64,000 nucleotides of DNA from Myxococcales bacterium (GTDB lineage: Bacteria; Myxococcota; UBA727; VGSZ01): contig JAHFED010000012.1 of the NCBI GenBank assembly GCA_023248635.1, positions 42,118 to 106,117 on the forward strand, given 5' to 3'. Of the stretch, positions 187-16,182 are shown one piece after another. The position numbers and the translations under genes are program-made. The notes below the pieces were generated by a model, which searched no databases, was not told the origin of the DNA, and worked only from the letters and a program-made list of their open reading frames with translations. Positions within the stretch are counted from its first letter, which is position 1. Each line of letters starts with the position of its first letter.

Positions 187-1365
187 TCAGACGGGGCCCC
201 CGACGAGTGGAAGGTTCTGGCCGTTCACATAGCTCGCTTCGTCGCTCGTCAAAAACGCGACAACACTTGCTGTGTCCGCTGGTGTTGCCAGTCGCCTCAT
301 CGGGCTCCTGCGGGCTTCCAGTTCCTTCACGCGAGCCGGAACATGCTCGACGAGCTGGGTGACCGTCAGGCCAGGGGAGACCATGTTCACGGTAATGCCG
401 TGCGGCCCCAAATCGACGGCAGAAGCTCTGACCAGGCCCCAGAGCGCGCTCTTGGCGGCCACATAGGCGGCATTGCCCGCCGGCGGCGTCCCCAACAGCG
501 ATGAGGTTCCCAGGACGACGAACCTCCCGAACTTCCGCTCGCGCATTCCGGGCACCGCCGCTGCCAGGAGGGCCAGCGCTCCCCCGACGTAGACGTCAAA
601 GAGGGTCTTCACGTCCTCGAAGGCGACCTCCTGAACGGGCACGGTGGAAATCGGCGTCGAGGCGCCGTGGACCACGATGTCGAGGGCACCAAATACTCGA
701 GTGGCGCGATCGACGAGTGCTGCCACGGCGCGCGGGTCGGCGATGTCGCACGGCTCCGCGATCACCCGCCCACCCGCCACGCTGATCTCCTGGGACACAC
801 GTTCGAGGTCATCGGTCATGGTCCGGCCGTTGATAACCACGGCCATTCCGCTGCGCGCCAGCCGGAGCGCCACCGCAGCTCCGATTCCGCGCGAGGAACC
901 TGTCACCAACGCAACGCGATTCTCGCGCGGGGTCACCTCGCGGCGATCAGAAATCTTCTCAACAACGCTCACCCGCGCCTCCCCCTTCATCACCATTCGC
1001 CCGTCTTGGTTGAATGCCTCGGTCAAAAGCACCAACGTGCGCCCCGCTCTGGAGGCGCGGCGCACCGTCAGTCGCACTTCAAGACGATCGCCAAGAAAGA
1101 CCGGAGCCAGCCACTCAATCTCTTGACCACGCCACAAGGCCCCTGGACCCGGGATCTCCATCCCAATCAGCCGCGACACGAGAGCAAGCGTAATCACGCC
1201 GTGGGCCACCTGACGAGCGTAGCCGTACGATTCCGCGGCCTCGCGATCGACGTGGAGAGGATTGCGATCGCCCGAGAACTCCGCAAAGGCTGAGATCACT
1301 CGCTCGTCGATGACGAGCGACGCCCGAGCCGTCTGGCCCTCAGTGAAGGGAAAGTCGTCAGTCAA
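187..1365 (-). CDS. MaoC-like hydratase fused to SDR ketoreductase
   Basis: The 392-residue protein has two parts. Residues about 5-135 are a MaoC/hot-dog hydratase with the hydratase-2 signature (FSGDRNPLHVD, then VAHG). Residues about 148-392 are a short-chain dehydrogenase with TGSSRGIG for NAD(P) binding and YVAAK as the catalytic Tyr-Lys, resembling FabG. Together they would interconvert 3-oxoacyl, (R)-3-hydroxyacyl and enoyl thioesters. No ATG is available near the N-terminus; the start is TTG at 1365, overlapping the end of the acyl carrier protein gene and preceded by GAGGGGCGG. Its position directly after the ACP gene suggests it works on an ACP-bound acyl group destined for the surface sugar. 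The exact substrate is inferred, not seen. Confidence 0.85.
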   Translation of the reverse strand: MTDDFPFTEGQTARASLVIDERVISAFAEFSGDRNPLHVDREAAESYGYARQVAHGVITLALVSRLIGMEIPGPGALWRGQEIEWLAPVFLGDRLEVRLTVRRASRAGRTLVLLTEAFNQDGRMVMKGEARVSVVEKISDRREVTPRENRVALVTGSSRGIGAAVALRLARSGMAVVINGRTMTDDLERVSQEISVAGGRVIAEPCDIADPRAVAALVDRATRVFGALDIVVHGASTPISTVPVQEVAFEDVKTLFDVYVGGALALLAAAVPGMRERKFGRFVVLGTSSLLGTPPAGNAAYVAAKSALWGLVRASAVDLGPHGITVNMVSPGLTVTQLVEHVPARVKELEARRSPMRRLATPADTASVVAFLTSDEASYVNGQNLPLVGGPV

Positions 1366-1594
1366 GTCCCGCCCCTCGTTCTGTCAGCACAAGCTTGATG
1401 AGGCGCACGGACAGCATGTCCATGGCGTCATCCGGTGTGAGCGTCACCGCAAACGCTTCCTCCAGTGCCACGATCAATTGTACATGCGACAGCGAATCCC
1501 AACCGGCGATGTCGTCGGGACTGCTGTCGTCCGTCAACGAGCTTGCCGGGACACCGAACACTTGCGCACAGACCTCAAGCACTCGATCCTGCAC
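1358..1594 (-). CDS. Acyl carrier protein
   Basis: This 78-residue protein carries the phosphopantetheine attachment motif GWDSLSH, whose Ser is intact, in a typical four-helix ACP layout. The start is taken as GTG at 1594, one base after the stop of the FkbH gene; in-frame codons upstream run inside that gene. The neighbours (FkbH upstream, MaoC-SDR downstream) show it is a specialised ACP of the surface-sugar operon and not the housekeeping fatty-acid ACP. It probably carries a small hydroxyacyl or glyceryl unit for transfer to a sugar amine. Confidence 0.88.
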   Translation of the reverse strand: MQDRVLEVCAQVFGVPASSLTDDSSPDDIAGWDSLSHVQLIVALEEAFAVTLTPDDAMDMLSVRLIKLVLTERGAGLD

Positions 1595-1595
1595 G

Positions 1596-3380
1596 TCACT
1601 CCCCCATGATGAAGTTCTCGGCGAACTCGACACTGATCGATGGCGTCGGCGCCGACGCATCGGCCCCCAGCGGCATGCGCCAGGTACCACCGCCTAGATC
1701 CTCGAACCCACGATCGCGATAGAAATCGGCCACAATATGGTTCTTCGCCGTCGGCAGATATTCGCCGATCAGCTGGCGACCGCCGCGGCTCTTCACTGCC
1801 ATCCGCAGCGTTGCCAAGAACGCATCCTCGATTCGCCGCCCAAGGACGCGACAGCTCAGAAGGAGGGTGTCAATTCGCCAGGCGCCCTCAGGTCCCGGAA
1901 CGGCGATTGCGACGCCGACGAGCCCGTGATCGCCGAAACGATCCGCCGCCCGCAGCCACATGGCCACAGCACCGTCGTCGAGCAGCCGCTGTAATTCGCC
2001 CGCACCGTGGCGCCGGGTGGTCAGGTTGAATTGGTTCGTCTTTCCCAGCAACTGCACGACCCGGGGGAGCACGTCCGCGCCGACCTGGCCAATTCGAAGG
2101 CGGGTCCCAAGGTCGTGCAGAAACTCGTCCACACCCGGCGTGCGCTGCCGCACCACTTCGCGCTGCCGCTCCTCACCGTACATGGCGGCACGTCGTGCAT
2201 CCTCTTCGATAACTTGGAGCTGATCGAACGCGCCCGACTCGTCGAGTGCCGCCGCATAGCCCAAAGGGCTTTCTGGGACAGCAATGACCACGACCTCCGG
2301 TAGCTGGCTCTTGACCCACTGACGCTCAACCGGGTTGTCATCGAAAAAAGCGAGCGCGTCAGTGCCGATGTTGAGATCGCGGGCGATCGCTCGCAGGCTC
2401 GTGGCCTTGTCCTGCCAATGGATCTGCATCGCTGCAAAGTGTTCCGGTCTAAGCAAGCTGTCGGGATGCCGTTCGAGCACCTGGCGTGCATCAGCTTCAT
2501 CGTTTTTGCTGGCAATCGCGAGCAGAATGCCGCGCTCGCGCAATGCGAGCACCTGCCGCTGAAAAGCGCGGAAGACATTGCCGGGGTAGTCCGCACCAAG
2601 TTTGATGCCGGCCATCAGGTCCTCGCCCAGCACGCCGCCCCACAGCACGTTGTCGAGGTCGAGGACCAAGCACTTGCACGGCGGCGAGACGGTAGCCCTC
2701 ACATACCGAGCCAAGCGCTGTGCGATGGCCCGAGCACCGCTTGCTCCGTAGGGAACTCGGGCCATGTATTGCAGTTTCGGATCGGCCCAATTCTCGAGGC
2801 CAACTTCCAGCGCGACCCGGGAGACGTCGAATACGAACACGCCCGTCTGTCGGCGCGCCAGGGCGGCGAGTGCCGCGTTGAACTGCTCTACAACGGCAGA
2901 CGTCGAGGGCAGATGGAGGGTGCTGGCCAAACCCAGAGGGAGGAGTTTCGGCTCCACAGCATTGAAAACAAACAGGGGCGCAGTGCTCACGCGGCGCAGG
3001 CCCAGCGCCAGGGCCTCGATGCGCGCCACGGTTTGCTGAAGGGCTCCCTCGACGTCCCGGCCATCCAGGCCCACGGCATGATCCACCAGGGCGGGCGCGA
3101 GATCCTCGAGGCGGCTGGCGATGAGCACCACATCGGGAGCCGACGACAGAGCTCCGCTGGCGGCGTTGAACAGCTCCTGCTCAAGCTGGCCATACGGGCC
3201 AAAGACCGGCTGCACCAAGAGGCCGCGCTGCGCCCCCGCCACGATCAAGTACGGGCGGAGAAACTCCGCCGTGAATGTAGACACGATGGCAACCCGCACC
3301 CGCCGCAGTGAGGGTGGCGGCGCTTGCTCGAGCCGGCGGGCCTCTTGAATCGTTTCGCCAGTCGTCATCGCTACGCTCAT
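1596..3380 (-). CDS. FkbH-like HAD-IIIC enzyme (ACP loading)
   Basis: The 594-residue protein has three regions: an N-terminal SGNH-like part (residues about 25-215), a HAD-IIIC domain whose nucleophile motif DLDNVLWGG starts at Asp241 with Asp243 next, and a C-terminal GNAT-like domain (about 430-580). FkbH proteins take 1,3-bisphosphoglycerate, remove phosphate and load the glyceryl group on an ACP; relatives occur in polysaccharide clusters with a partner ACP. The start is ATG at 3380, overlapping the stop of the tandem GNAT gene by ATGA. The ACP gene begins one base after its stop, which supports enzyme and carrier acting together. Whether the acyl unit is glyceryl is inference. Confidence 0.87.
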   Translation of the reverse strand: MSVAMTTGETIQEARRLEQAPPPSLRRVRVAIVSTFTAEFLRPYLIVAGAQRGLLVQPVFGPYGQLEQELFNAASGALSSAPDVVLIASRLEDLAPALVDHAVGLDGRDVEGALQQTVARIEALALGLRRVSTAPLFVFNAVEPKLLPLGLASTLHLPSTSAVVEQFNAALAALARRQTGVFVFDVSRVALEVGLENWADPKLQYMARVPYGASGARAIAQRLARYVRATVSPPCKCLVLDLDNVLWGGVLGEDLMAGIKLGADYPGNVFRAFQRQVLALRERGILLAIASKNDEADARQVLERHPDSLLRPEHFAAMQIHWQDKATSLRAIARDLNIGTDALAFFDDNPVERQWVKSQLPEVVVIAVPESPLGYAAALDESGAFDQLQVIEEDARRAAMYGEERQREVVRQRTPGVDEFLHDLGTRLRIGQVGADVLPRVVQLLGKTNQFNLTTRRHGAGELQRLLDDGAVAMWLRAADRFGDHGLVGVAIAVPGPEGAWRIDTLLLSCRVLGRRIEDAFLATLRMAVKSRGGRQLIGEYLPTAKNHIVADFYRDRGFEDLGGGTWRMPLGADASAPTPSISVEFAENFIMGE

Positions 3381-4405
3381 AGATTCGCCGCCTCGACAGC
3401 CAGTGGGACCCGGGGCTTCCATTCCTCGGCTCGCGCCCCCCAGAGGAACTCGTCGACCAACGAGCCATCATCCAGGCGGTGGGACTTGCGCAAAACGCCT
3501 TCGCGCAGGAAGCCGAGCCGACGAAACGTAAAATTCATGCCCGTGTTGGTCGCATAGGTGCCACCCGTCACCCGCTGCAAACCGAGTTGAGAAAATGCGA
3601 ATTGCGCCAATAGATCGATCGTCTCGTCCGCGGCGCCGCGGCCCCATCGATCTCGTTCTCCAATGAGAAGGCCCACCTCGGCGGACTCACGTTGCAAATT
3701 CAAGCTCAGGGTCGCCGTTCCGACCATCCCGCGCGTGTCGCCCTCGGTCACTGCCCAGAAGTAACGGAGGGGGTCTTGCCGAATCGAGCGAACGAACTCT
3801 CGCCCGCTGGCGAGTGTCTGCTTTGCGTGGCGCACTTCTAAGAAACGGTTGACCAATGGGTCGTTCAGCCAACCAATGTATTGTTCGGAGACCAGCGCTT
3901 CAGTGAAAGGGACCAAGGCGTGGCGGATGCCGCGCAAGACGGCGGCTTCGCATCGCTTTTGGGCTGCTTCAGTTGGGTTTGCTCCCCGGAGACAACCCAG
4001 TCTCACGCCATCTTGAAAAGCGCCGTCAATGCAGAAATGGTCACGATCCCGACCTTCGTGCTCGAAGCCCGCGCGCTGAAACGCGCGTATCGCGCTGACG
4101 TTGTTAGCCCCAACGTGTGCAGTCAGCCGGTGCAGGTCGAGATGGCCAAACGCCCATTCGACAACCGCGCCAATCGCCTCCGCCGCATAGTGATGACCCC
4201 GGCAGTCCTGCGCGATGTGGATGGTCTGGATGGCGGCACGTTGATTGACGCGATCCAGGGCCCCAAGCCGGAGCTGCCCGATGGGTCGGTGCCCGTCCTT
4301 GAGAATAATCTCCATCAGAACATGCGACGTTACGAAGTCGCACTCCGACGAGGGCAGCGAGAGGCGCGTTCCTTCGAGAACCACCCTCCCAGACTCGATC
4401 TTCAC
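3377..4405 (-). CDS. Tandem GNAT N-acyltransferase
   Basis: The 342-residue protein holds two RimJ/RimL-type GNAT domains. The second (residues about 165-335) is complete: it has WLNDPLVNRFLEVR near its start, the CoA loop region ERDRWGRGAADE, and ATNTGMNFTFRRLGF. The first (about 5-150) has the C-terminal half (QDCRGHHYAAEAI, ANNVSAIRAFQRAGF) but its N-terminal helices look shortened. The start is GTG at 4405, overlapping the acyltransferase stop by GTGA. In the pseudaminate pathway a GNAT (PseH) N-acylates UDP-4-amino-4,6-dideoxy-altrose; this protein or the GNAT domain at 5550-7127 could do that. Adjacent FkbH and ACP genes suggest an ACP thioester donor is possible. Confidence 0.8.
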   Translation of the reverse strand: MKIESGRVVLEGTRLSLPSSECDFVTSHVLMEIILKDGHRPIGQLRLGALDRVNQRAAIQTIHIAQDCRGHHYAAEAIGAVVEWAFGHLDLHRLTAHVGANNVSAIRAFQRAGFEHEGRDRDHFCIDGAFQDGVRLGCLRGANPTEAAQKRCEAAVLRGIRHALVPFTEALVSEQYIGWLNDPLVNRFLEVRHAKQTLASGREFVRSIRQDPLRYFWAVTEGDTRGMVGTATLSLNLQRESAEVGLLIGERDRWGRGAADETIDLLAQFAFSQLGLQRVTGGTYATNTGMNFTFRRLGFLREGVLRKSHRLDDGSLVDEFLWGARAEEWKPRVPLAVEAANL

Positions 4406-5553
4406 GTTTGCCCCCCAAAGCGGGTATACACGACCCGCCGAAGTGTGTGGTAGTGCCTTTCCGTTGCGAGATATCCAATATAACAATATAAGTAGAAAAT
4501 AAGAAGCAAAATAATCCACGTGGATATGCCCTCTGGAGTCGTCGATGAGTATGGCCCGATGCCGGCGTTCTTGAGGGTGTAAGTCAGCATGATGAGGACT
4601 GGATAGTGATAAAGATAGACACTGTATGAAAATCCCGAGAAGAACTTCCAGAACTTACGAAAGCGATTCGAGTGGCTCCGTGGGTCGAGACGGTAAGCAC
4701 TCAGCAACAACGCGACGCTGGCAGCCGTCCCCAAGAGATGGGCAAAGCCGACACCCCGGACGCTGAGCAGGTCACTGTGCGCGGTGGACAAGAAAGCAAA
4801 GAGAAGCAACCAACCGAGCCATCGCGGGATGAGCGGCTTGCTCGGCAACCATGCCGCGACCCCGATCATCCAGAGCGGAGCAAATTTCAGAAGGTGTGGC
4901 GTCATGGTTGACGCGAGATGATTACTGCAGATGGCAAGGGCTGCGACAAGCAAGATTGCCGACACAAATCTGATGCCTTTGGCTACGCCAAAGCATGCCG
5001 CCAAGCCGAGCGGAAACATGAGATAATACCACAGCTCAAATGAGAGTGACCATAGCGGCTCATTGCTTCCGAAGATCGGAGAGAATATCGTCTGCAGAGC
5101 GAACAGGTTCCCCAAAAAAACAGCAATGGTCATGTTGCCAGCGATCTTGTCGAATCCCTCAGGTCCAAGGGCATGCACAAGCACATAGTCCAGCGCAAAA
5201 CCGAACGTCAGTGCCGGAATTAATACTATATAAATACGCGTAATACGATCAACAATAAAGCCGTGGACTGATTTCTCCCGCAGCATAAAAACCTGGATTG
5301 CAGCCTTCCCAATGAGAAAGCCGCTCACCACGAAGAAAATGACCACTGCGTGGCCACCGAGATCCGTGTAAGTTAGAAATATTTGCGTCGGCAGATCCGG
5401 ATGATCTGACGGCACGAACATCTCCGAGACGACGTGCCAAGAGACCACCATGAAGGCGGCAATGGTGCGCAGAACATCCAACACATTGGAAAGCTGGGGC
5501 CCGATGGAGAAGTCCTTCTTGCGCATGAACTCGATCGGGCTCTGCGCGGTCAT
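4402..5553 (-). CDS. Acyltransferase-3 family membrane protein (OafA/YrhL-like)
   Basis: The 383-residue integral membrane protein has about ten predicted transmembrane segments and the family signature LRTIAAFMVVSWHV with the conserved His near the N-terminus, typical of inner-membrane O-acyltransferases that acetylate surface polysaccharides. The start is ATG at 5553, sharing ATGA with the stop of the upstream GNAT-formyltransferase gene. The gene is visibly richer in A+T than most of the operon, for example around 5215-5260 and 4440-4510, which may mark a separately acquired piece. The likely role is O-acylation of the sugar or repeat unit made by this locus; the substrate is unknown. Confidence 0.85.
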   Translation of the reverse strand: MTAQSPIEFMRKKDFSIGPQLSNVLDVLRTIAAFMVVSWHVVSEMFVPSDHPDLPTQIFLTYTDLGGHAVVIFFVVSGFLIGKAAIQVFMLREKSVHGFIVDRITRIYIVLIPALTFGFALDYVLVHALGPEGFDKIAGNMTIAVFLGNLFALQTIFSPIFGSNEPLWSLSFELWYYLMFPLGLAACFGVAKGIRFVSAILLVAALAICSNHLASTMTPHLLKFAPLWMIGVAAWLPSKPLIPRWLGWLLLFAFLSTAHSDLLSVRGVGFAHLLGTAASVALLLSAYRLDPRSHSNRFRKFWKFFSGFSYSVYLYHYPVLIMLTYTLKNAGIGPYSSTTPEGISTWIILLLIFYLYCYIGYLATERHYHTLRRVVYTRFGGQT

Positions 5554-7127
5554 TTCATTCCGTGGGCGGTGAGCCGCGGTCGGAAGGTGCGGCCGTGCCA
5601 CAGCTTGTCCTGTGGCGTTGCAAAGCGATCTCCCTCGCGGACGCGTGCGATCAGCGATTCGCCCTCCGATGTGTGCACCGAATCGGTAGCAAGCAAGCCA
5701 TCGCTTACAGCGATCCACACCCGCGTGCCTTTTTGGCGTCGTACGACCAGGCCCGAAAGGTAGGGGTGGAAGAGCTGGCAGCGGTCGATTCGCACATTTC
5801 GAAGCCGGATTTCGGTCCCGTTCCAAAACGTGGCTGCGCCGATGTATGGCGCATCAAACGCGTTGCAAAAAGACTCGATGTCAGCGCCGCTCCACTGCCA
5901 ATCAATGTAGCCATTTTCTTTGGTGTGGAGACGCGGGAAGTAGGTACGCTGCGCGTCGAGGATTGCGTACGGTAGTCGGGGAAACGGCTCATCGTTCCTC
6001 ATGTCTTTGAGAGCACGCTGCATGAATTCGGCCGCCGCGCGATGGTTCTCGATGAAATAGTCCCTTGGCAGGCGTGCAGTTGGAGGAAGGCTGAAATACG
6101 CGCTTCTCAGCAGATCTCCACGATCAAGGTCCTCAGTGATCTCTTGGAGATGACAACCACCAGATCGATTATTATTTAAGATCTGCCATGTATAATGGGC
6201 ACCACCTAGGTAGTTGGGAATCGGTATGCCATTGAAATTAATCATCCCGGCACCGAACTGAGAGATAACCTGGGACGAGAAGATCCATGCGGGGCCAAAG
6301 CACAGGGCCAGCGCGTCCGGCCCCGCGGCTGTCGCGGTGCACAAGCCACTCCAGTCGTTGATGTCGTCTACCACGAAGACGTCGCCGCCGATGGCTCGAC
6401 AGGCCTCGGCAGTTTGCGTTTGGGCCAGAGGGAGGTTCTCCGTCGCATGGCGGGGCGCCAGGATGACCGAGACCGGGTAGCCAAGCTCGCGTGCGCATCG
6501 AGCCGACTCCAGCAGCAAATCTCCCCCGCCAATGAAAGTGATCTTGTCGACATGACCATAACGGGCGGCCGGGTCCGAAGGCTCCGCCAGCCGGGCGCCC
6601 CGCGAGAGGCCGAGGAGCAGTTGGTCTTGCCGTCCGTGCGCGGTCTCCCAGTGATCCTTGATCGTCGCTTCATGTGTGAAGCCGGCCTTCAAGAAGGCCT
6701 TCAGAGAACCGAGGTTATTGCTGTAGCAACCAGCGCCGATCTTTTTGAGGTTCAGTTTCTCAAAGCCATATGAGGCGACCGCGGAAATGGCTTCGGTTGC
6801 ATAGCCCTTGCCCCACGCACTCCGCTCTCCGAGCATGAGGCTGATGTCTGCGCGGCCGTGATTCCTATCGATTGGGCCCAGTTTGATGTTGCCAATATGG
6901 CCGCACCCATCACTCATAAATACGCCGAAGAGAAGGGAGTGCGATGAATCGTTGGCGTCGCAGACGAACGAACGAATGGCATCAATTGTATGAGTCAAGA
7001 ATCGCACTTCGAGATACCGAGTTACCTCGTCATCTTGCAGCCAACTCAGATAGCGCTCGGTGACGTCTTCATGCCCCAAGTTCCGCAGAAAGAGCCGTGG
7101 CGTCAGCAGGGGCGTGTCGGATCGCAT
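5550..7127 (-). CDS. GNAT acetyltransferase fused to formyltransferase-like protein
   Basis: The 525-residue protein combines a RimL-type GNAT domain (about 8-175; WGKGYATEAI and NNLGSLKAFLKAGF) with a formyltransferase fold (about 195-370) and a FMT C-terminal-like domain (about 400-515). In the formyltransferase loop the usual Asn-x-His is read as Asn297-Phe-Asn299, so the catalytic His is replaced by Asn, while the later Asp (DRGDLL, Asp337) remains. It may bind a folate or another donor, or be non-catalytic. The start is ATG at 7127 with an upstream GGAAGAAG. The GNAT half could be the missing PseH step, and the fusion would couple two N-acyl modifications on one diamino sugar. Confidence 0.82.
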   Translation of the reverse strand: MRSDTPLLTPRLFLRNLGHEDVTERYLSWLQDDEVTRYLEVRFLTHTIDAIRSFVCDANDSSHSLLFGVFMSDGCGHIGNIKLGPIDRNHGRADISLMLGERSAWGKGYATEAISAVASYGFEKLNLKKIGAGCYSNNLGSLKAFLKAGFTHEATIKDHWETAHGRQDQLLLGLSRGARLAEPSDPAARYGHVDKITFIGGGDLLLESARCARELGYPVSVILAPRHATENLPLAQTQTAEACRAIGGDVFVVDDINDWSGLCTATAAGPDALALCFGPAWIFSSQVISQFGAGMINFNGIPIPNYLGGAHYTWQILNNNRSGGCHLQEITEDLDRGDLLRSAYFSLPPTARLPRDYFIENHRAAAEFMQRALKDMRNDEPFPRLPYAILDAQRTYFPRLHTKENGYIDWQWSGADIESFCNAFDAPYIGAATFWNGTEIRLRNVRIDRCQLFHPYLSGLVVRRQKGTRVWIAVSDGLLATDSVHTSEGESLIARVREGDRFATPQDKLWHGRTFRPRLTAHGMK

Positions 7128-7296: not shown

Positions 7297-8628
7297 TCAT
7301 CCCGGCCGACCATGTGCCCCAGTGCTCTCGGCGCAATTGACTGCCAGGCCCTTCTCCACAAAACGCGAGACGTAGGCATGTACATCGGCAATCGGCAGGC
7401 CGTAGCGATCGGCAATTTCAAGGAGGTGTGTGCGGCCGTTGAGATGCCTCGAAAGACAGTTCATCAGCAAGTTCCATTTCGTATTGATTTCTGCGTACTT
7501 CTCGCGATCAATGCCCGGAGCCGGAGCGGCTCGGTACAGGCCGTAGCGGGGGTGCGAGAGCGCCACCAAGCCGGTCATGGTGGAACGTACGAGGAGGTTC
7601 TGCTCGAGCGCATCGATGATCAGCAGGGCGGTCTCGGCTGTGTCCAGCAGCCTCGGCCCGCTGACGGTGTCGGGAGTGTCGAGATTTGTATGGTAGCCAA
7701 AGAAGGGGAATCTAGTGAGTGAAATGCTTGGTATTTCGAAGGGGGGGGCCTCGAATACTGTTTCATCATTTCCATAAATCGTCCGAAATTCGCCGCTGTC
7801 GTATTGGCCAAAACGATGGCGGAAGACGTGATGCGCGGCCTTGTCGATCTGTGCCTCACCAGTGAAGCTCTGCTGCAGCCGCAACGGCCGGTCGTTCCCA
7901 ACAGACTTGAGCATGATGGTGCAGCCGAGATCGCGCGCTTTCGCCCCGAGCGCATCGAGCCAGAAGACCGTGCCGATGAGCTCGGGAGCGATCACCAGCC
8001 GATACGACAAGCGCCGCCGCTGCCGCTGCCGCAGCATTTGCAAGACTCGAATGCCGACGGCGCAGCCCGAAATGTCGTCGTTGGCTTGAAATGGGTGGCA
8101 GTTGTGAGCGTTGAGGAGAACTGTCTCGCTGCTGTCGCCTGGCAGTAGAAAATCGAGGACCTTCATCGTCCCCGTCTTCTCGGTGGCCACGAGGTCGACG
8201 TCGTAGTCGCCTTCTTCCAGGGCCTGGTAGAGGCGGTGGGGCACGCAGAATCCCCACGAGCGTTCACTGGGTCGGTACAGCGCCGTCCAGTGGTAGGGGA
8301 TCGCGTCTTCGGATTCGGAGCTGAAGTAAAGGTGCTCCTTCAGCTCTGTGAGCGACACGCGTCCGCGAAACGACTTGGAGAGGGTGATGACGCCGAGCGG
8401 GGAAGCGCGGCCGTCGTAGATGAGCCGCCCATCTTTGCGGATCTCCGCTTTCTCGATGTGGCAGGCAGGCGATGTCCGCCACCCATTGAGCTCGCTGCCG
8501 GAGGCGACCTCATGGACCTGAAACGGAAGCTCCGACTGGAAGGCGGCGACGGCATCGTCGTTGCCGCGGCCCGTCACCGAATAGGGAAATGGGTAGAGCT
8601 TTCGAACGAGCCGCAGAAGATCATCCAT
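7297..8628 (-). CDS. DUF4910/DUF2172 aminopeptidase-like protein
   Basis: The 443-residue protein resembles the zinc aminopeptidase-like family often found in sugar and polysaccharide clusters (DUF2172/DUF4910). Likely metal ligands are visible in LLNAHNCHPFQANDD and in YHTNLDTPD, with a Glu in the IAPELIGT segment. The last 70 or so residues look like the winged-helix domain that ends this family (LLEIADRYGLPIADVHAYVSRF). It has no signal peptide, so it is probably cytoplasmic. It lies 13 bases downstream of pseI. The substrate in sugar loci is not established; deacylation or deamidation of a sugar-linked group is a possibility, not something the sequence proves. Confidence 0.82.
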   Translation of the reverse strand: MDDLLRLVRKLYPFPYSVTGRGNDDAVAAFQSELPFQVHEVASGSELNGWRTSPACHIEKAEIRKDGRLIYDGRASPLGVITLSKSFRGRVSLTELKEHLYFSSESEDAIPYHWTALYRPSERSWGFCVPHRLYQALEEGDYDVDLVATEKTGTMKVLDFLLPGDSSETVLLNAHNCHPFQANDDISGCAVGIRVLQMLRQRQRRRLSYRLVIAPELIGTVFWLDALGAKARDLGCTIMLKSVGNDRPLRLQQSFTGEAQIDKAAHHVFRHRFGQYDSGEFRTIYGNDETVFEAPPFEIPSISLTRFPFFGYHTNLDTPDTVSGPRLLDTAETALLIIDALEQNLLVRSTMTGLVALSHPRYGLYRAAPAPGIDREKYAEINTKWNLLMNCLSRHLNGRTHLLEIADRYGLPIADVHAYVSRFVEKGLAVNCAESTGAHGRPG

Positions 8629-8641
8629 GTCCTCACCTCTG

Positions 8642-9694
8642 TCACGCCAGCAGCTCCCAGCTCAGTGGCGTTCCCGCCGGAGCATCTTGGTTGATGTGTT
8701 TTCCGAGCATGCGTTCGTAGTACTTCGGCGACAACCCAAATCCGGGCCGCACGATCCGCAGGTTCGTCTTCGTCAACAGGTCGCCCTTCTTGAGATCCTG
8801 AGCGATGTACAGCGTGCGGCGGAATACTCGGGATTTTTCTTCGGCTTTGGTGCCCCCATAGATGACGCGGCCCAAACCGAGCCACGCGCGCTCAGACTCG
8901 GTTCGCAAGAGCCGAAACTCCGCGGGCTCCAGCGAAAACGCGGAGTCGACGCCGCCATCCGCGCGGCGCAGCGTGAAGTGCTTTTCGATGACCGTGGCGC
9001 CAAGCGCAACGGCGGCGACGGCGACACCACAACCCATGGTGTGGTCCGAGAGTCCGACTTCGCAGCCAAATGCGTCGCGCATGTTGGGTATGGTTCGGAG
9101 GTTGCTGTTCTCCGGAGTCGCGGGATAGGTGCTCGTGCACTTCAGCAGCACGAGGTCATGGCAGCCGGCGTCCTGGGCGGTGCGCACCGCCTCGTCGATC
9201 TCCGCGGCAGTGGCCATGCCGGTCGAGATGATCATCGGTTTGCCGGTGCGCGCAACTCTGCGGATGAGGGGGAGATCCGTGTTTTCGAAAGAGGCAATCT
9301 TGTATGCGGGCACGGCAAGCGACTCGAGAAAATCGACGGCACTCTCATCGAAGGGCGAGCTGAAGCAGTGCAGCCCCAGTGCCTTCGCCTTCTCCATGAT
9401 CGGACGGTGCCACTCCCAAGGGGTATGCGCCTCGCGGTAGAGGTCGAACAACTGACGCCCTGACCATAAACTGTCGCCTTTCTCAATGACGAAACCAGAC
9501 GCTTTGAGGTCCAGCGTCATGGTTTCGGCGGTATAGGTCTGCAGTTTGATGGCGTCCGCACCGGAGTCGGCCGCAGCGTCGACGATCTGCAGCGCTCGCT
9601 CCAGCGACTGGTTGTGATTGCCGGACATCTCCGCAATCAAATACGGACGAACACTAGGCCCAATTTCGCGATCATGGATTTTCATTGTGCTCAC
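8642..9694 (-). CDS. pseI: Pseudaminic acid synthase (NeuB family)
   Basis: The 350-residue protein has the NeuB TIM barrel followed by an antifreeze-like SAF domain (about 285-345). It condenses phosphoenolpyruvate with 2,4-diacylamino-2,4,6-trideoxy-L-altrose to give pseudaminic acid. Family residues are clear: YLIAEMSGNHN, DAIKLQTYTAETMT, SLWSGRQLFDLY, STGMAT, LSDHTMG and VIEKHFTL. The SLWSG...LFDLY region favours PseI over sialic or legionaminic synthases. The start is GTG at 9694, overlapping the stop of the formyltransferase-like gene by GTGA; ATG at 9685 is an alternative. PseB, PseC and PseG lie upstream in the same operon. Confidence 0.93.
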   Translation of the reverse strand: MSTMKIHDREIGPSVRPYLIAEMSGNHNQSLERALQIVDAAADSGADAIKLQTYTAETMTLDLKASGFVIEKGDSLWSGRQLFDLYREAHTPWEWHRPIMEKAKALGLHCFSSPFDESAVDFLESLAVPAYKIASFENTDLPLIRRVARTGKPMIISTGMATAAEIDEAVRTAQDAGCHDLVLLKCTSTYPATPENSNLRTIPNMRDAFGCEVGLSDHTMGCGVAVAAVALGATVIEKHFTLRRADGGVDSAFSLEPAEFRLLRTESERAWLGLGRVIYGGTKAEEKSRVFRRTLYIAQDLKKGDLLTKTNLRIVRPGFGLSPKYYERMLGKHINQDAPAGTPLSWELLA

Positions 9695-10353
9695 ATCTTA
9701 TCAATGCGGATCCGATACTTTTGCCCCCGCAGCTCGAAGAACGCGGGGTAGCGATCCGGGTCCGCAACGCGCAACAGGTCGAAATGTTCTGTGAGCGGGC
9801 GCGAGGGATCGAGGGCACTGTCCGCCGGCGTCCGCTTCCGGTAAAGGCTCGGTTCGCCCTGCTGCACCCTGGGGGTGGAGTGGTCGCAATGCTCCAGCGC
9901 CCAGGTCATGAGGGTGAGCTCGGCGTCAAAGATCGCGGCGTTGATTTCGGTGTGCAATTCTGTTCCATTGAATTGCACAGGAATCTGATGCCAAATGTCA
10001 CCTGAATCAACTGAATTCTCGGCATTCAGAAGCGTAACCGTGAGGGAACTCTGGCCTTCGAGGATCTGCCAGATGTGCGGCGACATCCCACGCCCGCGGG
10101 GCAATGCACTCGCATGCACGACGAGCGTGCGGCGAAACATGTCGCGCGCCGGTTTGCGGATAATCTGGTGACACGAGATCAAGAACAGGAAGTCGCCGGG
10201 CTGTAGCTCGCTCACGTCGCGCAAGATGGCGACAGAAGCTGTGCCGGCACGTTCTTGAGCCTCCGCCCATAGCGCGAGCGGTGCATTCACCGGATGGCGT
10301 GGATCAGTGCATAGGATGGTCACGCGCTGCATCACATCGTCCTCACGAGGCAT
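9691..10353 (-). CDS. Formyltransferase-like protein of the Pse operon
   Basis: The 220-residue protein resembles a single formyltransferase domain with a short C-terminal tail. The core loop reads VVHASALPRGRG and a later acidic motif reads VDSGDIW. Compared with the usual Asn-Ile-His loop, the His is kept but the Asn is Val. A downstream part, HFDLLRVADPDRYPAFFELRGQKYRIRI, resembles the C-terminal part of sugar formyltransferases. It sits between pseG and pseI, where homologues often occur, and may add an N-formyl group to a 4-amino sugar before condensation. The start could be ATG 10353 or ATG 10332, which follows a GAGG. Confidence 0.8.
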   Translation of the reverse strand: MPREDDVMQRVTILCTDPRHPVNAPLALWAEAQERAGTASVAILRDVSELQPGDFLFLISCHQIIRKPARDMFRRTLVVHASALPRGRGMSPHIWQILEGQSSLTVTLLNAENSVDSGDIWHQIPVQFNGTELHTEINAAIFDAELTLMTWALEHCDHSTPRVQQGEPSLYRKRTPADSALDPSRPLTEHFDLLRVADPDRYPAFFELRGQKYRIRIDKM

Positions 10354-10398: not shown

Positions 10399-11481
10399 TC
10401 ATCCAGTCCTCATAGCGTGCGCGACGCGACGCGTCCCCTGGCCATCAACGAGCGCTCTCCCCTTCTCGGCGCCTCGTCGTCGCAACCCCACGTCTTTGAT
10501 CATCCGGTCGAGCTCCACGCCGACAGAAGCCGGTGAATGCGGAGCGTGCAAAACGGCATGCAGAATGCCCAACTCGACCAGTGGCTCGATGACATGGCGT
10601 TGGTTGTCGGCAACGACCAGGACTTGCGTCGGTGCACCAATACAACAGCGTTCCCACGTGGCGCCGCCGCCAGCTCCGACCTGCAGGTCGTGCCGGCCAA
10701 AGAAGGCGGCGAGGTCTGGCTGATCGAGCGTGACCGTCGTGTGCGGCCAAGTTTCGGCCAGAGCGATCAGCGCACGATGGTGGGGGTTTTGCCGGGTCGT
10801 AGCAATTTCGATCGCGCCATCAAAGCGGACGTGCTCGCGACAAGCGAGTAGCACCGTACGGCTCACATCGGCGACGTCCGCGCCGCCCATGAAGATGCCG
10901 ATGCTGCGAACCACCTCTTGAAAGGCGTAACGCGCGGCGGTCTCGTAGGACGCATCGAGCAGCGCGAAGCGGGGACCACCAAGGATGGGCACCGCAGGGT
11001 CCAAGCGACCGGCGTACTTGGCCCGATGATCTGGTGCGAAATTGTGATCGATGAGGAGGTCGGCCGCCAGGGGACGATCGGCCAGATCGTCGACCACCGC
11101 GACGCGAATGGCCCCCCGCCCCGAGATCGCCTCGTGCCAACGAGCATCGAACGCGTAGTGATCGACAACGAGCCAGTCGGCGCCGAACTGTGCCAGCGCC
11201 AATGCCGTTTCCTCGGCGTCAACATGCGCCGAGACCTGCGCCCAGCCTGCATGCATCGGCTCATGGGCCAGCCCATCGCGCTCCTCGGCGCGCGGTGCCC
11301 GCAGCAGCGAGCAACGAAAACCCGCGGTGGTCACGGGGCCGACGACGTCGACACCGAGATTGCGTGTCACGAAATGAACGTCCGCCCCGTCCGCCTGCAG
11401 TGCTTGCCCGAGGGACAGACAGCGCCGAACGTGCCCGAGGCCGATTTCAGTCGAGGCGTCGACGCGAACAGCGACGTTCAT
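10399..11481 (-). CDS. pseG: UDP-2,4-diacetamido-2,4,6-trideoxy-altrose hydrolase
   Basis: The 360-residue protein has the PseG layout of two Rossmann-like domains of the GT-B fold. The N-terminus has the GLGHVRRC loop whose His17 is the family catalytic base, and a C-terminal glycine-rich UDP-binding loop (LQVGAGGGATWERCCIGAPT) is clear. It removes UDP from the 2,4-diacylamino sugar before condensation by PseI. The length is typical with a modest C-terminal extension. It starts at ATG 11481, nine bases after the upstream aminotransferase stop. Confidence 0.9.
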   Translation of the reverse strand: MNVAVRVDASTEIGLGHVRRCLSLGQALQADGADVHFVTRNLGVDVVGPVTTAGFRCSLLRAPRAEERDGLAHEPMHAGWAQVSAHVDAEETALALAQFGADWLVVDHYAFDARWHEAISGRGAIRVAVVDDLADRPLAADLLIDHNFAPDHRAKYAGRLDPAVPILGGPRFALLDASYETAARYAFQEVVRSIGIFMGGADVADVSRTVLLACREHVRFDGAIEIATTRQNPHHRALIALAETWPHTTVTLDQPDLAAFFGRHDLQVGAGGGATWERCCIGAPTQVLVVADNQRHVIEPLVELGILHAVLHAPHSPASVGVELDRMIKDVGLRRRGAEKGRALVDGQGTRRVAHAMRTG

Positions 11482-11490
11482 GTACTGGTC

Positions 11491-12777
11491 TCAGCGAAGC
11501 TTGAAGAGCGGAACGAGTGGTTCACAACGCAACGTGCTGCGCAGGGTTCCCCGATCGAGCACCTGCCCGATCATCGGCAGGACCTCGGCGTAGGCGGCAA
11601 TCAGGGCGGCGATGTCGGCCTCCGAATGCGCGTAGTTCACGTTGTGCGATCCGACGGAGAGGATCCCGCGTTGTAAGAGCTCCTGCATGAGCAGGGTCTT
11701 GATCTCGAACGCCGTGGCCCCACGAGCGTCCTTGATGGTCAGAAAGGTCCACGTCGGGTGGCCGCTCAAGGAAAAGACGTCACCGAGGCCGCCGTCTTCG
11801 ACCACCCGACGAGCACCGGTGAGGATCTGGTTGCCGTGGGCCAGGAGCGTCTTCACCACAGGTTGCGTCTTCAGTTTCTGAAGCGTCGCCTTCGCAGCCG
11901 CGAGCGAAAGGGCTTCGCCACCGAAGGTGAAGGAGAAGAAGACCTCCTCCATCATCTTCATAACGTCCCGCCGACCAGCTACCGCGGAAACGGGGTAGCC
12001 GTTCGCAAGGCCTTTGCCGAAGGTCGCGAGGTCGGGCGTGACACCAAAGTGTTCCTGCGCCCCACCATTGGAAAAGCGAAACCCCGTGATGGTCTCGTCA
12101 AACACGAGCAATGCCCCGTGAGCGTGCGCCAGCGCCTTCACGCCGTTGAGGAATCCCACCTGCGGTTCTGCGACGTTCATGGGCTCCATCACAACGGCCG
12201 CGAACTCGCCGCGATGCTGTGCGAGACCGGCCTCGAGTGACTCGAGGTCGTTGTACTTGAACGTATGCGTCAGTTCTTGCGTTGCCTTCGGCACCCCACG
12301 GTTACGCGCCGTGGTGCCGATGTACCAGTCCTGCCATCCGTGGTAGCCGCAAACCATCACGCGGTCGCGGCCGGTGAACGCGCGCGAGATGCGCACCGCG
12401 CCCGACGTCGCATCGGAACCATTCTTTCCGAAGCGGACCATCTCGGCACACGGCACCATCTCGCAAATCAGCTCGGCGACCTCGGTCTCGATGGGATGAG
12501 GCAGCGAAAAGATGACGCCGACGTCCAACTGTTCACGCACCGCACGAGTGACGTCGGGATCGTTGTAACCGAGCGTGATGGCGGCCAGGCTGCTGACGAA
12601 ATCGATGTACTCGTTGTCGTCGATGTCCCAGGCATGAGCGCCCTGCGCCCGTTTGATGAAGTAGGGCGAGACGCCATGCGGGTACTGCGTCCGGCTCTTG
12701 CTGAACGTCTGGCTCCCGAGCGGGATCGTTTTCTCGGCGCGCTGCAAATAGAGTTCGGACTGCTGGAACGTCTTCAT
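11491..12777 (-). CDS. Class III aminotransferase, glutamate-1-semialdehyde aminotransferase-like
   Basis: The 428-residue PLP enzyme resembles glutamate-1-semialdehyde aminomutases, with the PLP-binding Lys in TFGKGLANGYP, the acidic residue in LLVFDETITGFR, and GSDATSGAVRISRA around the phosphate. The start is ATG at 12777, preceded by AAGGGGCAG. Its position inside a sugar operon between hisF-like and pseG argues against a role in haem synthesis. Related genes accompany SpsF-type cytidylyltransferases and NeuB-type synthases in other surface-sugar loci, but their reaction is not well defined. A role in making a modified nonulosonate or an amino substituent is inference. Confidence 0.85.
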   Translation of the reverse strand: MKTFQQSELYLQRAEKTIPLGSQTFSKSRTQYPHGVSPYFIKRAQGAHAWDIDDNEYIDFVSSLAAITLGYNDPDVTRAVREQLDVGVIFSLPHPIETEVAELICEMVPCAEMVRFGKNGSDATSGAVRISRAFTGRDRVMVCGYHGWQDWYIGTTARNRGVPKATQELTHTFKYNDLESLEAGLAQHRGEFAAVVMEPMNVAEPQVGFLNGVKALAHAHGALLVFDETITGFRFSNGGAQEHFGVTPDLATFGKGLANGYPVSAVAGRRDVMKMMEEVFFSFTFGGEALSLAAAKATLQKLKTQPVVKTLLAHGNQILTGARRVVEDGGLGDVFSLSGHPTWTFLTIKDARGATAFEIKTLLMQELLQRGILSVGSHNVNYAHSEADIAALIAAYAEVLPMIGQVLDRGTLRSTLRCEPLVPLFKLR

Positions 12778-12796
12778 GGCCTGCCCCTTTGCATCA

Positions 12797-13597
12797 TCAG
12801 GTCTCCATGCGGATGGCGACGCCGGCATTCCGGATGTGGGCGCGTGTTTGCATCGGATTTTGGTCTCGGAAACAGAAAAAGGTTCCGGCGGCGACACCTT
12901 CGGCGCAGCCCTTCACGAAGCCTTCGGTGAAGTGCTCGGCGCGACCACAACCGCCCGAGATGATTACCGGCACAGGCACCGCATCTGCGATCTGTCGGCA
13001 CACTTGCCAGTTGAGCCCGTCGCCGCCGCCGTCGCGATCGGCGTCGCACAAGAGAATTTCGCCGGCTCCTCGGTCCGCCGCTTCCTTCGCCCAATCCAGT
13101 ACGGTGCGACCGGTGGTGTGTCGGGCCGAATGCCGGACAACGAAGGACGCACCGTCTGCGCCGGTCCGAAAATCGATCGAGACGACCACGCACTGCGCGC
13201 CGTAGCGGTTCGCCGCAGCACCAATCAGATCGGGGTCGTCGAGCGCCGCTGTGTTGACAGAGACCTTGTCGGCACCTCGTTCCAGCAGCAACCCAAAGTC
13301 GTCGAGTGCTCGCACGCCGCCTCCGACGGCCAAGGGCATGAAGGTTTCGCCCGCGAGTCGCTCGATGAGCTCGAGCATCAGCTTGTCGTCGCCGATGGGC
13401 GTTCCATCGATGTTGAGAACGATGAGCTCGTCGGCCAGCTGTGCCTCGTAGATCTTGGCTTGCGAGACTGGATCACCAACATCGTGTGACGCGGAAAAAC
13501 GCGTCGTCGTGACGAGAACGGGGCGCGTCGTTCTTCCGAGCTTCCGGTGCTGAATCAGCAGCTTGGGGATGAGGCGCTTCTTCAACATCGCGTTCAC
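12797..13597 (-). CDS. HisF-like cyclase subunit for sugar amidination (WbuZ type)
   Basis: This 266-residue TIM-barrel protein is a HisF paralogue: RLIPKLLIQHRKLGRTTR at the start, then ELIVLNIDGTP, AVGGGVRAL, GADKVSVNTAA and IISGGCGR. In true HisF the first Asp lies in CLDV; here that segment is VLVTTTRF, as in the WbuZ/HisF2 group that serves N-acetyl-sugar amidotransferases. With HisH it would supply ammonia for the adjacent amidotransferase. The start is GTG 13597, overlapping the HisH-like stop as GTGA, or ATG 13588. No other his genes are near, so histidine synthesis is unlikely. Confidence 0.86.
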   Translation of the reverse strand: MNAMLKKRLIPKLLIQHRKLGRTTRPVLVTTTRFSASHDVGDPVSQAKIYEAQLADELIVLNIDGTPIGDDKLMLELIERLAGETFMPLAVGGGVRALDDFGLLLERGADKVSVNTAALDDPDLIGAAANRYGAQCVVVSIDFRTGADGASFVVRHSARHTTGRTVLDWAKEAADRGAGEILLCDADRDGGGDGLNWQVCRQIADAVPVPVIISGGCGRAEHFTEGFVKGCAEGVAAGTFFCFRDQNPMQTRAHIRNAGVAIRMET

Positions 13598-14220
13598 ATT
13601 GCCATGAAGCTGCGGAGGAAACGCATGCCTGCGGCCTGGCTCTTCTCTGGGTGAAACTGTGCGGCGACGAGGTTGTCGCGCCGCAGCGCGGCACAGAACG
13701 TTTCACCGTGATGACAGGTCGCCAGGACGCTTCCCGAGATCGGCGTGCGGTAGCCGTAGGTGTGGTCGAAGTAAAAATCGGCGGATTCTCCGCTCTTGAA
13801 CTCGCCGAAGTCGTCGCAAAAGACGGCCGCATTCCAGCCGACGTGCGGGATCCGAACGGAAGGATCGGTGCTCGTGAGGCGCCGAACTTCGCCGCCGCAG
13901 AACCCGAGACCTCGCTGAAACCCCATCTCGTCGCTCGTGTCCGCCAGGAGCTGCATGCCGACGCAAATCCCGAGGGTGGGACGCTTGCGGCCCAAGGTCC
14001 ACTCCTCCAGGTACGCCAAGAGGCCGCTAGCACGCAGGCGCCCTGCACAGAAGCCGAAAGCGCCGACGCCAGGGAGGAGGAGATGTGTCGCGTCGTTGCC
14101 ATCCCCTGGGGCGCGAATTCGAATGGCCCGCGCGCCGAGGTGCTCGAGGGCACTCGTGATCGAGCGGATGTTCCCCGCCTGGTAGTCAACAATGCCGACG
14201 ACGGCGGACGAGCAGCTCAC
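13594..14220 (-). CDS. HisH-like glutamine amidotransferase subunit
   Basis: The 208-residue class I glutaminase has the nucleophile Cys86 in GICVGMQLL and the His-Glu pair in QFHPEKS. It releases ammonia from glutamine, which the HisF-like partner would channel to the sugar amidotransferase. The start is GTG at 14220, sharing GTGA with the amidotransferase stop. The tight order amidotransferase-HisH-HisF matches WbpG/HisH2/HisF2 loci where an acetamido group becomes acetamidino. Confidence 0.88.
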   Translation of the reverse strand: MSCSSAVVGIVDYQAGNIRSITSALEHLGARAIRIRAPGDGNDATHLLLPGVGAFGFCAGRLRASGLLAYLEEWTLGRKRPTLGICVGMQLLADTSDEMGFQRGLGFCGGEVRRLTSTDPSVRIPHVGWNAAVFCDDFGEFKSGESADFYFDHTYGYRTPISGSVLATCHHGETFCAALRRDNLVAAQFHPEKSQAAGMRFLRSFMAM

Positions 14221-15425
14221 GTTTTCGCGGCGCCCGAGTTCTTGCGCGCGCGCCAACGCGAAAGCTGCTCCTCGGTGCTCTCGCGATCCATGGCCCCTGC
14301 GCGGCTCCAACGATCGAAGTCGGCCGTCTTGGCCCCGGGTTTCGTCGCCTTCGGATCGTGTATGTAAGGCGACACCTGGTGACCCATTGCCACTTCGTGG
14401 AATTCGGCTTCGGTGAGGCCGGTAAATTCTAGAAATAGCTCCAGGCTCGGCGGTCGCTTTCCCTCGTAGTCATTGACGAGCTGCCGCCCCTCTTCAGCCG
14501 TCTTGCGGTCGCTCCTGCGATCGATCGCGACAAGGTGAGACGGCCTCGAGTATCCGCGTTTGATGTACTTGATGTAATCTCGCACTCCTTGCATGTAGCA
14601 CTCGATCTTTTCGTAGTTATATTCCGGGGGAACGTTTTCAACTTCATCGCCCTTCCACGAGATCTCTTTTTGGATGATCGTGGACTGCTTCTTCACGTCC
14701 CAAGGGATGAAGGAGCCCAGACAAACAGATCGATAATTCAGAGCACGCAGCGCCGACAGCGGCGGATACGAATACGGCTTTAGCTCTCGTTCGTCGACTG
14801 TTCCACCGAGACGAACGAACATATCAGGCGCGCTGATGCCGAGGTTCATGAAACGATTGAATCGGGTTTCATCCACCTCTTCTGCCTTTTCATAGCTGAA
14901 GTAGGCGGTGTATTCTGCTGATGGTTCGCCCCAGAAAATAAGCGGTATTTTCTTCTCGATGGCGATCCACATTGGATAAGAAAAAATGCCTGTGTGGCAG
15001 TGCCAGCAGAAGTCACCCTTTTCGAGGAACGACTGCAGCATGAGCTTCTGCACGATCTTCCAATTGGGCGTGAAGGACAGGCAGTCGGCGCCTAGATGGC
15101 GCAGGGTGCGCCTAACGTTATCCTCAAGATTCGGACGCATAAACCCGTGGTCGAAGCGCACCACCAAGGGCTTGATGTTGTACTCCTTCATGAGATAATA
15201 GAGAGTCCAGGTGCTGTCTTTGCCACCGCTGAATGGAACGAGGCAGTCATAGTCGTACTTGCCGCGGTGCTCCTCGATCAGGCCGTCGAGGGCCTTCTTG
15301 TTCGTGGCCCAGTCGGTCCGCAGGTTCTTGAAATCCTGCTGGCCGCAGATGTTGCAGACCCCGTCGACGTTGAAGGAAATGGTCTCGTGGGTTTCGGGGA
15401 GACCGCAGCGGGTACAGCGTTTCAT
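14217..15425 (-). CDS. wbpG: N-acetyl sugar amidotransferase (WbpG/PseA type)
   Basis: The 402-residue protein belongs to the N-acetyl sugar amidotransferase family. It starts with a four-Cys zinc-type motif (CTRCG...CNICG), then an ATP pyrophosphatase loop PFSGGKDS (residues 64-71). Later conserved parts include FCWHCHTG and WGEPSAEYT. The family adenylates an N-acetyl group and replaces oxygen with ammonia to form an acetamidino group, as in Pse5Ac7Am (PseA) or bacterial mannuronates (WbpG). The start is ATG 15425, one base after the stop of the cytidylyltransferase gene. Its coding sequence is relatively A+T-rich (about 14,560-15,230) compared with its neighbours. Confidence 0.9.
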   Translation of the reverse strand: MKRCTRCGLPETHETISFNVDGVCNICGQQDFKNLRTDWATNKKALDGLIEEHRGKYDYDCLVPFSGGKDSTWTLYYLMKEYNIKPLVVRFDHGFMRPNLEDNVRRTLRHLGADCLSFTPNWKIVQKLMLQSFLEKGDFCWHCHTGIFSYPMWIAIEKKIPLIFWGEPSAEYTAYFSYEKAEEVDETRFNRFMNLGISAPDMFVRLGGTVDERELKPYSYPPLSALRALNYRSVCLGSFIPWDVKKQSTIIQKEISWKGDEVENVPPEYNYEKIECYMQGVRDYIKYIKRGYSRPSHLVAIDRRSDRKTAEEGRQLVNDYEGKRPPSLELFLEFTGLTEAEFHEVAMGHQVSPYIHDPKATKPGAKTADFDRWSRAGAMDRESTEEQLSRWRARKNSGAAKT

Positions 15426-15426
15426 G

Positions 15427-16182
15427 TCAGCTCTGTCCGAGTTGGAGGGCTTTGGGCGCCAGTGCTTCGTTCCGCGCATGCACGTTGGAGAGGATGTCAG
15501 GCTCCGCGTCGAGCGCCCGCAGCATGTCGAAGAGATCAAACTCGCTGTTCGCGGTGCCGATGGCGGCGAGGAGGCGCCGGACCGTGACGAGGTCGTCGGG
15601 GTAGTCGACGGTTAGGCGCATGTGCGAGAAGTCGGCGACGGCGCGCAGGTTGGCGCGCGCGAGCCCGGCTGCCTTCGATCGCATCCACAGCGTGACGTGC
15701 TCTCGCTCCGGCTGTTCGCCCGCCAGATCGTCAGCACGTTCGAGGGCAGCCCACGAGAAACACTCCACGTCGAGGCCGTCGGGGTAGGTCGGCGGATCGA
15801 TGTTGCTGGCATAGTCGCTGCCGCTGCTCCGACGCAGCGCGATGACGCGATCGATGATCGCCGGATCGATCAAGGGACAGTCCCCCGTCAGGCGCACGAC
15901 CTCGGTTGCCCGCTCACTCCTTGCAGCATCGACATAGCGCCTGAGCACGTCGTGCAGATCGCCGCGAAAGGCGCGCACGCCTGCGGTCTTCAGCGCCACC
16001 TCGAGCTCGTCATCCGTCGGATCCGTGCTGGTCACGACGACCACGTCGTCGAGCAGCTGGGCTCGAGCGGCGCGGCGCACCATGTAGACGATCAGGGGAA
16101 TGCCGTGGAGCAGCTCCAGCACTTTCCCGCGAAAGCGACTGCTCGACATACGCGCTTGGATGAGGCCGACGGTTCTGCTCAT
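15427..16182 (-). CDS. SpsF-type cytidylyltransferase, candidate PseF
   Basis: The 251-residue nucleotidyltransferase has the N-terminal motif IQARMSSSRFRGKVL, the DCPLIDP acidic motif and a later RLTVDYPDD. It belongs to the SpsF/COG1861 cytidylyltransferase group, not to classical NeuA. In this operon it is the only candidate for CMP activation of pseudaminic acid, the step called PseF. The start is ATG at 16182, sharing ATGA with the aldo/keto reductase stop. The exact nucleotide and sugar are inferred from context. Confidence 0.85.
   Translation of the reverse strand: MSRTVGLIQARMSSSRFRGKVLELLHGIPLIVYMVRRAARAQLLDDVVVVTSTDPTDDELEVALKTAGVRAFRGDLHDVLRRYVDAARSERATEVVRLTGDCPLIDPAIIDRVIALRRSSGSDYASNIDPPTYPDGLDVECFSWAALERADDLAGEQPEREHVTLWMRSKAAGLARANLRAVADFSHMRLTVDYPDDLVTVRRLLAAIGTANSEFDLFDMLRALDAEPDILSNVHARNEALAPKALQLGQS

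Follow-up and report, generated by a model that had tools for sequence, protein, structure and literature searches.

An FkbH-ACP-MaoC/SDR cassette at the end of a pseudaminic acid operon, a candidate supply of carrier-remodelled acyl groups for a nonulosonate or its polysaccharide

Enzymes of the FkbH family take the glyceryl group of 1,3-bisphosphoglycerate, remove the phosphate and load the group onto an ACP, and in bryostatin-type lactyl loading modules FkbH acting with a dehydratase, a ketoreductase and an ACP would yield lactyl-ACP. Our literature search found no paper that treats the formation of lactyl groups by FkbH modules. The formation of glyceryl-ACP by FkbH from 1,3-bisphosphoglycerate, with a free-standing ACP, is described for the methoxymalonyl-ACP and tetronate glycerate operons (PMC7489565). 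Groups of this kind also occur on pseudaminic acid (Pse). In the passages cited, Campylobacter jejuni makes dimethylglyceroyl-pseudaminate (DMGA-Pse) and needs Cj1295 for the group at N5, where the authors propose that this protein removes an acetyl group (PMC3068675); the FkbH gene Cj1302 and Cj1295 are placed in one Pse locus (PMC7099621). The assignment of Cj1295 to the DUF4910 family rests on its aminopeptidase-like description (PMC3068675) together with the listing of Campylobacter among the carriers of the family (PMC4000134), both as worded in the passages cited. Table 2 of the latter source shows that NeuB, a DUF4910 protein (3k9t), a GNAT, an ACP and a GNAT+HAD, FkbH-like protein are neighbours in Clostridium acetobutylicum (CA_C2186-2199; PMC4000134). 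Tannerella forsythia ATCC 43037 makes Pse5Am7Gra. As the cited parts of the literature present it, the origin of glyceric-acid-type acyl groups on pseudaminic acids is a gap, the Tannerella glyceroyl gene being called elusive (PMC6120980) and only Cj1295 being linked to the group in Campylobacter (PMC3068675); a small FkbH-ACP unit that is linked to nonulosonate genes offers a direct candidate for that origin. The sequence-only reading of the locus described below had called such a route unusual for a nonulosonate, a wording that is too strong given DMGA-Pse, the neighbourhood of CA_C2195 and Pse5Am7Gra, as far as the cited sources describe them.

The whole stretch of DNA analysed, hereafter the window, comprises 64,000 nucleotides of a Myxococcales genome. 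On its minus strand, a tandem GNAT, FkbH, ACP and a MaoC-SDR fusion follow one another in this transcription order with almost no gaps (Table 1): GNAT and FkbH overlap by 4 bases, FkbH and ACP are separated by 1 base, and ACP and MaoC-SDR overlap by 8 bases. Since the four frames overlap or nearly touch, they probably share one message; promoter and terminator scans gave results at chance level. The cassette forms the end of a pse operon that includes PseB, C, G and I, a likely PseF, an amidotransferase trio and a DUF4910 protein. All four genes lie where the sequence-only reading had put them, and the families of FkbH and MaoC/SDR and the ACP serine were confirmed; the placement within a nonulosonate operon is supported, similar company being found in relatives. 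The boundaries drawn there, 187-4405, do hold the four genes but leave out the DUF4910 protein, the GNAT-formyltransferase fusion and the AT3 protein of the same operon. Next after the MaoC-SDR gene comes an FG-GAP repeat protein (L002:17843-19090), with a short run of undetermined residues in its frame.

Table 1. Genes of the cassette and of the surrounding pseudaminic acid operon, in window coordinates
Feature	Position	Strand	Basis
MaoC dehydratase/hydratase fused to FabG-like SDR	187..1365	-	Pfam, NCBIfam, alignment with 2 relatives, model and PDB fold match to FabG (SDR half)
Free-standing ACP, 78 aa, phosphopantetheine Ser34 in GWDSL	1358..1594	-	PF00550, sequence, PDB ACP matches
FkbH-type HAD-IIIC protein, 594 aa; DLDN motif, SCRV Cys C510	1596..3380	-	TIGR01686, alignment, PDB 3slr
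Tandem GNAT, candidate acyltransferase; domain 1 degenerate, domain 2 complete	3377..4405	-	Pfam (two stretches), PDB alignments, domain alignment
AT3 (Acyl_transf_3) membrane acyltransferase, rival transfer route; start codon not fixed	4402..5571	-	PF01757 E 1.6e-25
GNAT fused to formyltransferase domain; its GNAT the best PseH candidate	5550..7127	-	Domain searches, alignment
DUF4910/DUF2172 protein, same family as Cj1295 and CA_C2195	7297..8628	-	PF16254 E 1e-52; PDB 3k9t E 4e-43
PseI pseudaminic acid synthase	8642..9694	-	TIGR03586 497.6 bits, cut-off 340.25
Formyltransferase-like protein	9691..10353	-	Domain searches
PseG UDP-sugar hydrolase	10399..11481	-	TIGR03590 217.8 bits, cut-off 153.55
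Glutamate-1-semialdehyde aminotransferase-like protein (true start inside)	11491..12897	-	
HisF/WbuZ-like subunit	12797..13597	-	
HisH-like glutaminase subunit (true start inside)	13594..14310	-	
WbuX/PseA-like N-acetyl sugar amidotransferase, acetamidino group (true start inside)	14217..15539	-	TIGR03573 299.7 bits, cut-off 203.2
Nucleotidyltransferase, likely PseF (true start inside)	15427..16596	-	Weak KdsB/PseF matches
Aldo/keto reductase	16179..17042	-	
DegT aminotransferase, PseC	17039..18214	-	Pfam, identity to G011
Polysacc_synt_2 dehydratase, PseB	18227..19309	-	Pfam; 73% identity to G011 pse-cluster copy

The Pse gene set is identified with unequal firmness: PseG and PseI exceed their cut-offs, PseB and PseC are assigned by Pfam and by identity to a second genome of the same order (G011), and the PseF matches are weak. 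Past the pse operon lie Wzz and Poly_export genes, and past the end of the cassette, outside the window, a glycosyltransferase, a hexapeptide transferase and capsule-type genes; from these neighbours we infer that the product most likely forms part of an exported surface polysaccharide and that an acetamidino group is one of its substituents. The host genome has a second NeuB-family gene on a different contig (G000:C130:24818-25534), and a second nonulosonate may be made.

FkbH scores 292.5 bits against TIGR01686, twice the curated cut-off of 146.65 (E 3.6e-87), matches PDB 3slr at E 1.8e-38 and is the sole copy in the 6.5 Mb of genome searched. Across an alignment of five sequences, the HAD motif DLDN is invariant and C510 of the SCRV motif is unchanged, making this cysteine a candidate for the acyl-bearing thiol. 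The ACP passes the PF00550 cut-off (E 1.1e-9), and its modification site, Ser34, is intact (codon 1495-1493). FkbH would transfer the glyceryl group of glycolytic 1,3-bisphosphoglycerate, dephosphorylated, to this dedicated ACP, and the cassette probably supplies acyl-ACP for the nonulosonate or for the polysaccharide that contains it.

The MaoC-SDR fusion holds both domains in one frame (MaoC, E 2e-18; SDR, E 8.6e-48). In the alignment of three fusions, D33 and H38 of the MaoC motif GDxNPLH are invariant, and the SDR half, which is FabG-like by its predicted model and PDB fold match, retains GxxxGxG, S288, Y301 and K305; the Asn position of the SDR tetrad reads as Tyr in all three, which counts against the proposed function. 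A profile search of 195 genomes of the phylum recovered the full-length fusion in three (E ~1e-201 to 1e-207), the next match (E 8e-55) covering the SDR half only; the profile was built from those same three proteins, so that what the search adds is the lack of a fourth and not the presence of the three. In each of the three genomes the fusion stands directly behind FkbH and ACP, and two of the three loci are nonulosonate clusters. In another genome, G016, MaoC and SDR are two separate genes, arranged in this order behind FkbH-ACP and followed by an MBOAT, so that all four loci link MaoC and SDR to FkbH. With three further genomes of the phylum sharing it, the FkbH-ACP-MaoC/SDR order is not attributable to chance. 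A contig scan with MaoC-SDR returned mostly generic FabG proteins or MaoC/SDR pairs, the long matches L020, L022 and L028 having no FkbH nearby, and the plasmid MaoC+SDR matches inspected belonged to degradation-type operons without FkbH.

The sequence-only reading had suggested that the acyl group may be reduced or hydrated; reduction or (de)hydration on the carrier fits these results, since the MaoC and SDR motifs are intact and the fusion was met only behind FkbH-ACP. The fusion suggests that a decorating acyl group can be remodelled on its carrier before transfer, and it is likely that MaoC-SDR acts on the group loaded by FkbH. Glyceryl-ACP has a hydroxyl at carbon 3, where dehydratases of the MaoC type act. 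As a candidate glyceryl-ACP dehydratase, the MaoC half would remove this hydroxyl as water to give an enol and then pyruvyl-ACP, which the SDR half would reduce to lactyl-ACP; no simpler scheme would employ every part. Lactyl as the product, derived from the logic of the enzymes, is a tentative assignment, and somewhat doubtful.

An unlikely alternative is that no lactyl group is formed: the SDR would oxidise the primary hydroxyl of glyceryl-ACP, as in a methoxymalonyl-like route, or glyceryl would be transferred unchanged, with MaoC-SDR acting elsewhere. Dehydrogenases do oxidise glyceryl-ACP in the proposed methoxymalonyl-ACP pathway (PMC7489565), unmodified glyceroyl is reported on Pse in the cited description of T. 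forsythia (PMC6120980), and the pse cluster of G011 has FkbH-ACP without MaoC-SDR. An oxidative route, however, would leave the MaoC half without a role; the operon genes of the window include neither of the two dehydrogenases (FkbI and FkbK types, the former an acyl-CoA dehydrogenase) nor the O-methyltransferase expected beside FkbH-ACP in a methoxymalonyl-ACP operon; and a fusion acting elsewhere sits poorly with its being met only behind FkbH-ACP. A 3-hydroxybutyryl-type group, made by SDR reduction of a 3-ketoacyl-ACP with MaoC interconverting enoyl and 3-hydroxyacyl forms, would suit the FabG-like SDR and the hydroxybutyryl substituents known on nonulosonates (PMC6388019), N-hydroxybutyryl being common on Pse and Leg, but we judge it improbable, as the operon has no ketosynthase, FkbH would be left unexplained and MaoC and SDR go with FkbH at all four of the loci above.

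The step after the carrier is less clear-cut. The tandem GNAT that the sequence-only reading had cast as the transferase is an extra GNAT touching FkbH, which fits, but one of its domains is degenerate, an AT3 is present in the operon, and relatives pair FkbH-ACP with MBOATs. The ~35 residues that would separate the first strand from the CoA core are absent from domain 1, whose CoA loop has the sequence CRGHHYA, against RWGRGAA in domain 2, which resembles acetyl-CoA enzymes in PDB alignments; a structure predicted with no relatives was uninformative (pLDDT 34). No GNAT of the operon exceeds the PseH cut-off. The better PseH candidate is the GNAT half of the GNAT-formyltransferase protein, since it shares 43% identity with the single GNAT recognised in the G011 pse cluster, and the predicted tandem GNAT fits the part of an additional transferase coupled to FkbH. 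By eye, both formyltransferase-like proteins (5550-7127 and 9691-10353) depart from Asn-x-His, with NFN in the fusion and VVH in the shorter protein, and both may be altered or inactive.

The acyl transfer, with a free amino group on the Pse precursor as acceptor, would most likely fall to domain 2 of the tandem GNAT. The competing possibility, also unlikely in our view, is that the ACP-bound acyl is an ester donor, moved to a polysaccharide hydroxyl by AT3 or another O-acyltransferase, with both GNATs using acetyl-CoA only. The AT3 gene lies inside the operon, and an MBOAT accompanies FkbH-ACP in G016 (with MaoC and SDR), in G011 (where it is DltB-like), on Sinorhizobium pSymB and in Tistrella; DltB-type MBOATs draw the acyl group from a carrier protein. 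AT3 enzymes, on the other hand, are known as users of acyl-CoA and not of ACP, the window's operon showed no MBOAT, and it is the tandem GNAT, not AT3, that touches FkbH. N-acylation over O-acylation is an even call. We noticed in passing that on the plasmids L113-L116 (Sinorhizobium meliloti, Tistrella, Paroceanicella and Niveispirillum) FkbH has an ACP beside it or close by, together with genes for MBOAT, WcbI-like or methyltransferase proteins, and no polyketide synthase is visible; these may belong to a wider FkbH-ACP acylation theme.

Across the 195 genomes of the phylum, which hold 52 NeuB places, 4 of the 31 FkbH sites have a NeuB-family gene within ~22 kb, against ~0.06 expected at random positions, a figure that overstates the link, given that polysaccharide clusters tend to hold genes of both kinds. 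G005, a genome of the same order, has NeuC (over cut-off), NeuB-family, cytidylyltransferase, methyltransferase and GSCFA genes next to its cassette, and no GNAT adjoining it. In G011, FkbH-ACP and the MBOAT follow on from a complete pse cluster that includes amidotransferase genes. In G066, FkbH-ACP-fusion lies on a short contig with no visible nonulosonate gene beside it, and NeuB is on another contig. The missing GNAT of G005 and the G066 locus both count against the proposed function.

DUF4910 would, following the hypothesis for Cj1295 in the source cited, expose or exchange the amide at C5; we propose, by analogy, the same role for the protein of this operon. The family exceeds its cut-off in 10 of the 195 genomes, and besides the window's genome only G056 (a weak, partial match on a different contig) has matches to DUF4910 as well as to FkbH, so that FkbH has no constant partner in DUF4910 within the phylum. 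It was not found in genome G011, where a PIG-L de-N-acetylase (PF02585, L170:10249-10926) lies between a formyltransferase-like gene and a PseF-aminotransferase fusion and is a possible functional replacement.

Taken jointly, loading and remodelling of a three-carbon acyl-ACP, with some transfer to a sugar or polysaccharide, is slightly favoured as the function of the cassette. The full sequence, in which free-standing FkbH-ACP-MaoC/SDR converts 1,3-bisphosphoglycerate to lactyl-ACP and an ACP-dependent GNAT passes the group to a Pse amino group, is distinctly unlikely to hold in every step. If true, it would bring polyketide-type carrier chemistry into sugar biosynthesis and point to the missing source of nonulosonate glyceroyl groups.

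Each described system shares a part of this locus. The C. jejuni flagellin locus, compared by its published description, likewise combines a Pse pathway having an acetamidino option with DUF4910-type and FkbH proteins and a glyceric-acid-derived N-acyl group on Pse, but methyl groups are added there and no MaoC-SDR appears in the description cited. T. forsythia comes close to the present system through six pse genes and a Pse that bears acetamidino and N-glyceroyl groups, in the passages cited (PMC6120980). CA_C2186-2199 differs in that Table 2 of its source gives no MaoC-SDR. Unlike the methoxymalonyl-ACP and tetronate operons, the operon described here has no polyketide synthase, FabH-like protein or FkbI/K/G partners, and its acceptor would be a sugar or polysaccharide; unlike the bryostatin-type modules, it encodes free-standing proteins in a sugar cluster. 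Against the sources as cited, the association of FkbH and ACP with Pse genes appears to be of a known kind, and what is new appears to be the step carried out by MaoC-SDR.
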